DNA of 64,000 bases, taken from positions 1-64,000 of the forward strand of contig JAFIEY010000006.1 of NCBI GenBank assembly GCA_020832345.1, read 5' to 3'. Position numbers and translations under genes: made by a program. The stretch comes from Cryomorphaceae bacterium. Its GTDB lineage: Bacteria; Bacteroidota; Bacteroidia; Flavobacteriales; Schleiferiaceae. Positions 15,573-16,749 of the stretch are shown piece by piece (position 1 is the stretch's first letter; each line of letters begins with the position of its first letter). The notes beneath the pieces were generated by a model. The model worked only from the letters and a program-made list of their open reading frames with translations. It ran no database searches and was not told the origin of the DNA.

Positions 15573-16649
15573 ATGTTGTCAAAAAAAATAATTACCGTTT
15601 TTGCCCTTGCTGCCGTTGGATTTATTGCTGGCTGTAATAAGGACGACGATTCAGGTAATGGTAAATCCGTTCATCCAAAAGTAGAATCAACTAGTCCGAG
15701 CGCGGATGAAACCAATGTAGCATTAAACAAAACCATTTCTGTAAATTTTAGTGAGGAAATGGATGCCTCTACAATCACCAGTAGTAGTTTTTCCGTAAAG
15801 AAAGGTAGTACAGTAGTTCCTGGAAGTGTTTCTTATTCCGGTAAAACTGCTTTGTTTGAGCCTTCCGTTGCGCTTGATGAAAACGCGGGTTATACCGTTA
15901 CGATTTCAACCAGTGTAAAAAATAAAAAGGGCGATGCCATGATCAAAAAAGAATCATGGGAATTTTCTACCGGAGTAAGTATGACGGGTATGGCAACGGT
16001 CAACCTCAGAGCTTCGGGTAATTACGTGATTTTAGCAAAAACCGCCATCAATAATATTCCTACCGCGGATATTACAGGTGATGTTGGTTTAAGTCCGGCA
16101 GCCACTTCATATATCACCGGATTTTCGCTGACCAATGCCACCGGTTACGCTACTTCTGCACAGGTTACCGGAAGAATTTACGCAGCCGATATGGCGCCGC
16201 CTACTTCTATTAATCTGGCTACTGCTGTAAACGATATGATATCTGCTTACAACGATGCAGCCGGTCGTTCTGTGCCTGATTTCACCGAATTGGGTAATGG
16301 AAACATTGGCGGAAAAACGTTGATTCCCGGATTATATAAATGGACCAGTACCGTTGTGGTGCCTACAAATTTTGTTGTTTCTGGTAGCGCTACCGATGTT
16401 TGGATTTTCCAGATAGCAGGAAACCTCTCTGTGGGTTCAGGTGTGAAAATGATTCTTAGCGGTGGCGCCAAACCTGAAAATATTTTCTGGCAGGTAGCTG
16501 GTGAGGTAGGTATTGGAACCACTTCGGAATTTAAAGGGGTACTTTTGTCTATGACTGGCATTACTTTAAACACCGGTGCTACACTTAATGGCCGCGCTTT
16601 AGCTCAATCGGCGGTAGTGTTGGATTCTAATATTATTACGCAACCATAA
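15573..16649 (+). CDS. Ice-binding (DUF3494) lipoprotein with an Ig-like domain
   Basis: A 358-residue lipoprotein: signal ending at Cys21 (FIAGC), then an acidic linker, a Big_5-type Ig-like domain (about 33-135, with VNFSEEMDAST) and a DUF3494 domain (about 140-358). The latter shows VILAKTAINN, ITGDVGLSP, a TELGNGNIGGKTL-GLY block and the closing NGRALAQSAVVLD, all typical of bacterial ice-binding proteins. These fold as a beta-helix that binds ice, inhibits recrystallisation or attaches cells to ice. Lipid anchoring favours a surface adhesin role here. It is monocistronic with its own terminator. Confidence 0.93.
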   Translation: MLSKKIITVFALAAVGFIAGCNKDDDSGNGKSVHPKVESTSPSADETNVALNKTISVNFSEEMDASTITSSSFSVKKGSTVVPGSVSYSGKTALFEPSVALDENAGYTVTISTSVKNKKGDAMIKKESWEFSTGVSMTGMATVNLRASGNYVILAKTAINNIPTADITGDVGLSPAATSYITGFSLTNATGYATSAQVTGRIYAADMAPPTSINLATAVNDMISAYNDAAGRSVPDFTELGNGNIGGKTLIPGLYKWTSTVVVPTNFVVSGSATDVWIFQIAGNLSVGSGVKMILSGGAKPENIFWQVAGEVGIGTTSEFKGVLLSMTGITLNTGATLNGRALAQSAVVLDSNIITQP

Positions 16650-16691
16650 GCCATGAGAATTTGGACTTTTCTATGAGGGTCTATTTAAAAT

Positions 16692-16729
16692 AAAAAAAAC
16701 CGCGAGTTTGATTACTCGCGGTTTTTTTT
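16692..16729. terminator. Bidirectional terminator between ice-binding and POT genes
   Basis: Stem ACCGCGAGT/ACTCGCGGT (16699-16707 with 16714-16722) flanked by A and T runs, so it can end transcripts from both convergent genes. Confidence 0.9.
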
Positions 16730-16749
16730 ATTTTACGATTCGTGGGTTT

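Follow-up and report, generated by a model that had tools for sequence, protein, structure and literature searches.

A lipid-anchored DUF3494 protein with a Big_5 spacer in a Cryomorphaceae bacterium: likely surface display, plausible ice binding and probable transfer within Bacteroidia

DUF3494 genes are often taken as marks of life on ice. The gene at 15573–16649 raises the question of what such a gene means in a member of Bacteroidia, where its product appears to be tethered to the cell, and how the gene came to be there. The window is the whole stretch of DNA analysed (64,000 nucleotides). Publications are cited here by PMC number, from excerpts. The features of the locus are as follows.

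15573..16649, plus strand: open reading frame (ORF) of the DUF3494 lipoprotein, 358 aa, ATG start, exact ORF bounds.
15573..15635, plus strand: lipoprotein signal peptide ending in the lipobox I-A-G-C, from the sequence and from the invariance of C21 in homologue alignments.
15633–15635, plus strand: codon of residue 21, the lipid-bearing Cys predicted from the lipobox.
15633..15650, plus strand: C-N-K-D-D-D, which fits the export signal C-x-K-(D/E)2, from the sequence and the consensus in PMC5080379.
15672..15971, plus strand: Big_5 Ig-like spacer, residues 34–133, from Pfam PF13205 and the beta-strands of the model.
15987..16646, plus strand: DUF3494 / Ice_binding beta-solenoid, residues 139–358, from PF11999, PDB 4nu3 and VIA-align.
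16692..16729, no strand assigned: inverted repeat of A-tract, GC stem-loop and T-tract, between convergent genes.

The preliminary description had claimed a lipobox, a Big_5 domain and a DUF3494 domain, and all three are confirmed. The Pfam profile Ice_binding (PF11999) matches residues 153–356 with an E-value of 3.6e-70 and 236 bits against a cut-off of 28.7, and is covered in full (1–208 of 208). The best PDB match in the sequence search is 4nu3, the capping-head-swapped FfIBP (E 1.8e-74), and it delimits a complete DUF3494 domain at residues 139–358. Big_5 (PF13205) matches residues 34–133 (E 2.1e-23, 83.5 bits against a cut-off of 23.6); the CopC profile of Pfam overlaps the same stretch, below its own cut-off. 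The score against the NCBIfam ice-binding equivalog IBP_CFB is 253 bits, under the cut-off of 400. The leader before I-A-G-C21 is short, basic and hydrophobic. C21 is the sole Cys of the protein and is invariant in both alignments, A2 (25 rows) and A3 (30 rows). PF11999 matches once in the 4.03 Mb assembly, at this ORF, and has no match in 14 control genomes. Judged by its sequence, the ORF encodes a well-formed lipoprotein with an ice-binding-type head.

The AlphaFold model, based on a 30-row alignment, has a mean pLDDT of 83.1 and a pTM of 0.64, with pLDDT below 50 at residues 1–30 and 206–210. In the model, a run of short strands and a helix at residues 212–230 correspond to a discontinuous beta-solenoid with its bracing helix. 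VIA-align superposes the model on 4nu3 with Z 36.9 and an rmsd of 1.7 Å over 222 residues, and on the other 24 DUF3494 entries listed with Z 30.2–36.2. The Ig-like part resembles CopC-type folds (Z up to 14.0, 1.4 Å over 92 residues). The same DUF3494 fold and bracing helix are seen in FfIBP of Flavobacterium frigoris PS1 (4nu2; chimera 4nu3). The head is 57% identical to the solved FfIBP variant 4nu3 over 222 residues. This head-swapped chimera is the best structural match and aligns over 222 residues, while wild-type FfIBP gives Z 35.5 and aligns over 210. FfIBP carries a disulphide in its capping head (PMC10853241); in the window protein, C21 is the only Cys. The solved FfIBP construct is without Big_5, which the window protein has.

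On which side of the membrane would such a protein face? The lipobox alone does not set the sidedness. For Bacteroidetes lipoproteins, an export signal was described with the minimal form K-(D/E)2 and the optimal form C-x-K-(D/E)2-x, and this signal sufficed to bring a periplasmic lipoprotein or a reporter to the surface of C. canimorsus (PMC5080379). The anchor of the window protein, C21-N-K-D-D-D, meets the optimal form, which is the consensus of Capnocytophaga. Among homologues with a recognisable lipobox, from the 57 Bacteroidota and 55 others examined, K/R-(D/E)2 at most two residues from the Cys is found in 19/50 Bacteroidota and 0/39 others, the strict C-x-K-(D/E)2 in 10/50 and 0/39, and at least two acidic residues at +2 to +7 in 33/50 and 8/39; the significance of these counts by Fisher's test is overstated, because the sequences inside each group are akin. 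These counts indicate that the anchor is, by sequence, suited to the export route of the phylum in part of the family. In the window, seven ORFs pass a loose lipobox rule, and only the DUF3494 ORF has C-x-K-(D/E)2. Because C-N-K-D-D-D matches the export signal, the protein is likely to be displayed on the cell surface. The tethering through the lipobox Cys, as first proposed, is thus strengthened. It is improbable that the lipoprotein faces the periplasm and, from within, restricts the growth of ice or stabilises the envelope. The definition of the signal in Capnocytophaga, and the different consensus of F. johnsoniae and B. fragilis (PMC5080379), leave some room for this arrangement beside the silence of the lipobox on sidedness, but the optimal form of the signal, sufficient for reporter display in C. 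canimorsus, and its absence from the six other lipobox ORFs argue against it.

The next question is what the head binds. The predicted ice-binding face is the b-face (PMC7966756, PMC12337378), and FfIBP, TisAFPs, LeIBP and ColAFP are reported as active (PMC7966756). According to PMC7966756, no strict ice-binding sequence motif is conserved in the family. A strict motif was therefore dropped as a criterion and the columns of the faces were compared instead; these columns derive from strand order and alignment, not from coordinates. The outward columns assigned to the b-face are T260, N284, E311, G329 and A347, and V262, S286, G313, T331 and V349. In TisAFP7, change of A214 or Thr20 to Tyr lowers the activity (PMC7966756). 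V349 is opposite A214 in the columns that we assigned, T157 aligns with Thr20, and Y180 with the position of Phe43 of TisAFP7.

Charged residues occupy 1/10 cells of the b-face of the window protein and 3/8 cells of its c-face. The single charge of the b-face is the acidic E311, at the centre of the face predicted to bind ice. The corresponding counts for the b-face and c-face are 2/40 and 5/32 in four solved proteins, 18/110 and 22/88 in the clade of the window protein (11 rows), 42/570 and 114/456 in 57 Bacteroidota, and 62/519 and 84/416 in 52 non-Bacteroidota. The sequence composition thus fits an ice-binding face, though the solved proteins have a cleaner one. Based on the model, ice binding by the window protein is plausible; ice is the likeliest ligand judged by the fold, but not a secure one.

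The same anatomy could belong to a surface lipoprotein adhesin whose head binds something other than ice, such as a mineral, a polysaccharide or another cell. "Ice-binding" would then be a family label inherited from polar members. We hold this to be the less probable reading, and one that carries real weight. The acidic residues on the b-face of the clade are consistent with it, and DUF3494, which may bind a range of substrates, is present in the tropics and in hot springs (PMC7783341). The family is also common: PF11999 is carried by 65/395 genomes sampled evenly from the class. Homologues occur in isolates from arid soil (N. turpanensis, PMC3974942) and from a terrestrial mud volcano (P. 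gracilis; from a title in the reference list of PMC11122141). Record titles of other relatives suggest groundwater, fens, lake sediment and archaea. Such habitats can still include ice, since many soils and lakes of temperate regions freeze for part of the year. Two of the relatives, F. micromati and Marinobacter guineae, we take to be Antarctic. The identity of the head to the solved FfIBP variant also speaks against a non-ice target, as does the scarcity of charge on the b-face relative to the c-face, both in the window protein and across the sampled Bacteroidota.

On balance we lean, by a little, towards a surface-displayed lipoprotein with a Big_5 spacer and an outward DUF3494 head that binds ice, encoded by a gene acquired within Bacteroidia. 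The gene product would be a stand-alone lipoprotein of the outer membrane. Its signal peptide would be cut at C21 and C21 lipidated, as the lipobox predicts, and the start C-N-K-D-D-D, read as an export signal, would probably direct it to the outward-facing side of that membrane. Big_5 would serve as a short spacer, with the beta-solenoid head pointing outward and most likely binding ice through its flat b-face. The cell could thus hold on to ice or shape the ice that touches it. The tree supports transfer of lipobox, Big_5 and DUF3494 between families of Bacteroidia as a single unit. More speculatively, and with considerable doubt, the lipobox-Big_5-DUF3494 clade of Bacteroidia might be a mobile single-gene module for surface adhesion, passed whole between families with the export signal of the phylum, whose acidic b-face was adapted away from ice to a different solid ligand. 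If the export signal is functional, the protein would offer a compact and genetically simple model of how cells grip ice, or some other surface, by means of a single short lipoprotein.

Proposed ice adhesins offer a comparison. In SfIBP_1 of Shewanella frigidimarina and the adhesin of Marinomonas primoryensis, as here, an Ig-like spacer lies between the cell and the ice-binding head; for these proteins ice adhesion is proposed, with Ig-like repeats as the tether (PMC9957290). The window protein has a single Ig-like domain and is anchored by a lipid; the Marinomonas adhesin, at 1.5 MDa, is much larger. By sequence, the spacer and the anchor of the ice-adhesin anatomy are present in the window protein. 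Further counterparts are found in Flavobacterium micromati (L007), Flavobacterium sp. GT3R68 (L006) and Perlabentimonas gracilis (L014), which have the same lipobox-Big_5-DUF3494 layout and the same length. Identity to the window protein is 52–65% across the 18 Bacteroidota rows of A2, with 62% for F. micromati. As far as seen, bacterial Big_5-DUF3494 proteins differ from it by ordinary sequence divergence only.

The preliminary description had contrasted most DUF3494 proteins, as secreted, with a tethered one here. The tether stands and the contrast does not. Among the 29 Bacteroidia DUF3494 proteins fetched, which represent the best-scoring locus per genome for 29 of the 65 positive genomes and therefore favour the higher-scoring subfamily, 26 have a lipobox and nine have Big_5. 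The three loci counted without a lipobox are L091, L106 and L090, the last possibly because its 5' part lies off the end of the locus, and the lipobox of L104 was counted under the looser rule alone. Over 400 DUF3494 proteins with Big_5 are reported in GenBank (PMC10796529). Big_5 was seen in 70/83 retrieved relatives, which is not a rate, because the relatives (80 of 185 kept) were retrieved partly by peptide patterns of lipobox and Big_5. In Arctic samples, 116 domain architectures were described, and Ig-like tethers were discussed as parts of ice adhesins (PMC9957290). Our literature search found no published description of a lipid-anchored Big_5-DUF3494 protein, which does not prove absence. 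The layout is not very unusual, and the window protein belongs to a known group without standing out in it. Many of the other PF11999 matches in the class sample lie in longer frames. Four longer-frame neighbours of fetched genes (L096, L102, L107 and L109), which are outside these counts, have a start resembling a plain signal peptide.

The ORF seems, from the sequence, to stand alone as a transcription unit. The gap to the upstream gene is 179 bases, and the ORF is convergent with a transporter gene. The neighbours are, in our reading of the sequence, a DAHP synthase, a POT transporter and MtaB. The RNA of 16685–16735 folds with −28.3 kcal/mol (z −9.5), and the hairpin at 16692–16729 probably acts as a bidirectional terminator at the end of the transcript; a terminator pattern scan did not include this hairpin in its list. 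A promoter scan gave nothing, with 5 sites against 4.0 in shuffles.

How did the gene arrive? Within the family of the host, PF11999 is found in 3/88 genomes: that of the window, G011, which is the one carrier among four sampled congeners, and G015. A tree of 32 full-length proteins unites the window protein, its homologue in G011 and that of G162, a genome from a different family of the same class, in a clade with support 100/99. An order-level clade of the window protein, G011, two Flavobacterium and G221 is rejected (p_AU 4.05e-5); this group was chosen by taxonomy, with Flavobacterium assumed to belong to the order of the host, and the test was run after a first tree had been seen. The grouping of the window protein and G011 as exclusive sisters has support 81/58 and is not decisive. 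The DUF3494 protein is 64% identical to that of G011 and 70% to that of G162, whereas for the MtaB marker the values are 80% (G011) and 56% (G162). In L005, the two values are 65% for the DUF3494 protein and 60% for MtaB. The reversed order of identities in G011 and G162 indicates that the gene probably moved between families, within class Bacteroidia. Horizontal acquisition, raised in the preliminary description, is therefore supported within Bacteroidia by the clade, the AU test and the scarcity in the family. That description would have been weakened by vertical descent in non-polar relatives: non-polar relatives exist, from arid soil and a mud volcano, and vertical descent was not found. 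A deep duplication followed by losses may be an alternative to transfer. Since the tethered form is ordinary in Bacteroidia, moves between families and occurs in places that are not icy, the inference from a DUF3494 gene to life on ice is weak in this class.

Base composition was rejected as a sign of transfer, being too weak. As first noted, it is unremarkable: the gene has a GC of 0.429, where 45 window ORFs average 0.428 (z 0.05), its GC3 of 0.346 lies somewhat under the 0.425 of the comparison (z −1.9), and its codon distance ranks third among 17 ORFs of 250–480 aa, itself included. Gene order was likewise rejected as a sign of vertical inheritance. The transporter gene of POT type adjoining the ORF has different neighbours in the congeners G009, G010 and G012, its best match in G011 is 44%, and the DUF3494 homologue of G011 is surrounded by genes that match nothing in the window. 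Synteny thus offers no comparison with an empty site. The flanking genes are genus-like, which makes contamination of the contig unlikely: the transporter is 73–82% identical in three of four congeners, two of these matches covering part of the protein, while the fourth gives 44%, and MtaB is 80–85% identical in all four, one a partial copy.

Of 112 extracted proteins, three (L031, L081 and L082) are without a domain match, probably in wrong frames, and were left out of the tree. L009 and L093 are identical in sequence and probably represent one genome. The same-family genome G015 encodes a different, two-domain DUF3494 protein (L003 / L004, G015:C90:34039-35220) in an open frame of 566 aa, in which a lipobox was not found. 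Its place in the quick tree is unsure because of its long branch. The DUF3494 domains of three Bacteroidales fen genomes (L026, L027 and L029) form a clade of their own (100). In the quick tree this clade lies among other phyla (enclosing forks 80 and 98), outside the main Bacteroidota clade, and transfer between phyla is possible from the sequences. Two DUF3494 proteins are archaeal as binned, L068 (DeMMO2_15) and L084 (a Micrarchaeota bin from groundwater). In the quick tree they group weakly (85) with the ice-binding protein 9lhn of Cryosericum and one of Omnitrophota.
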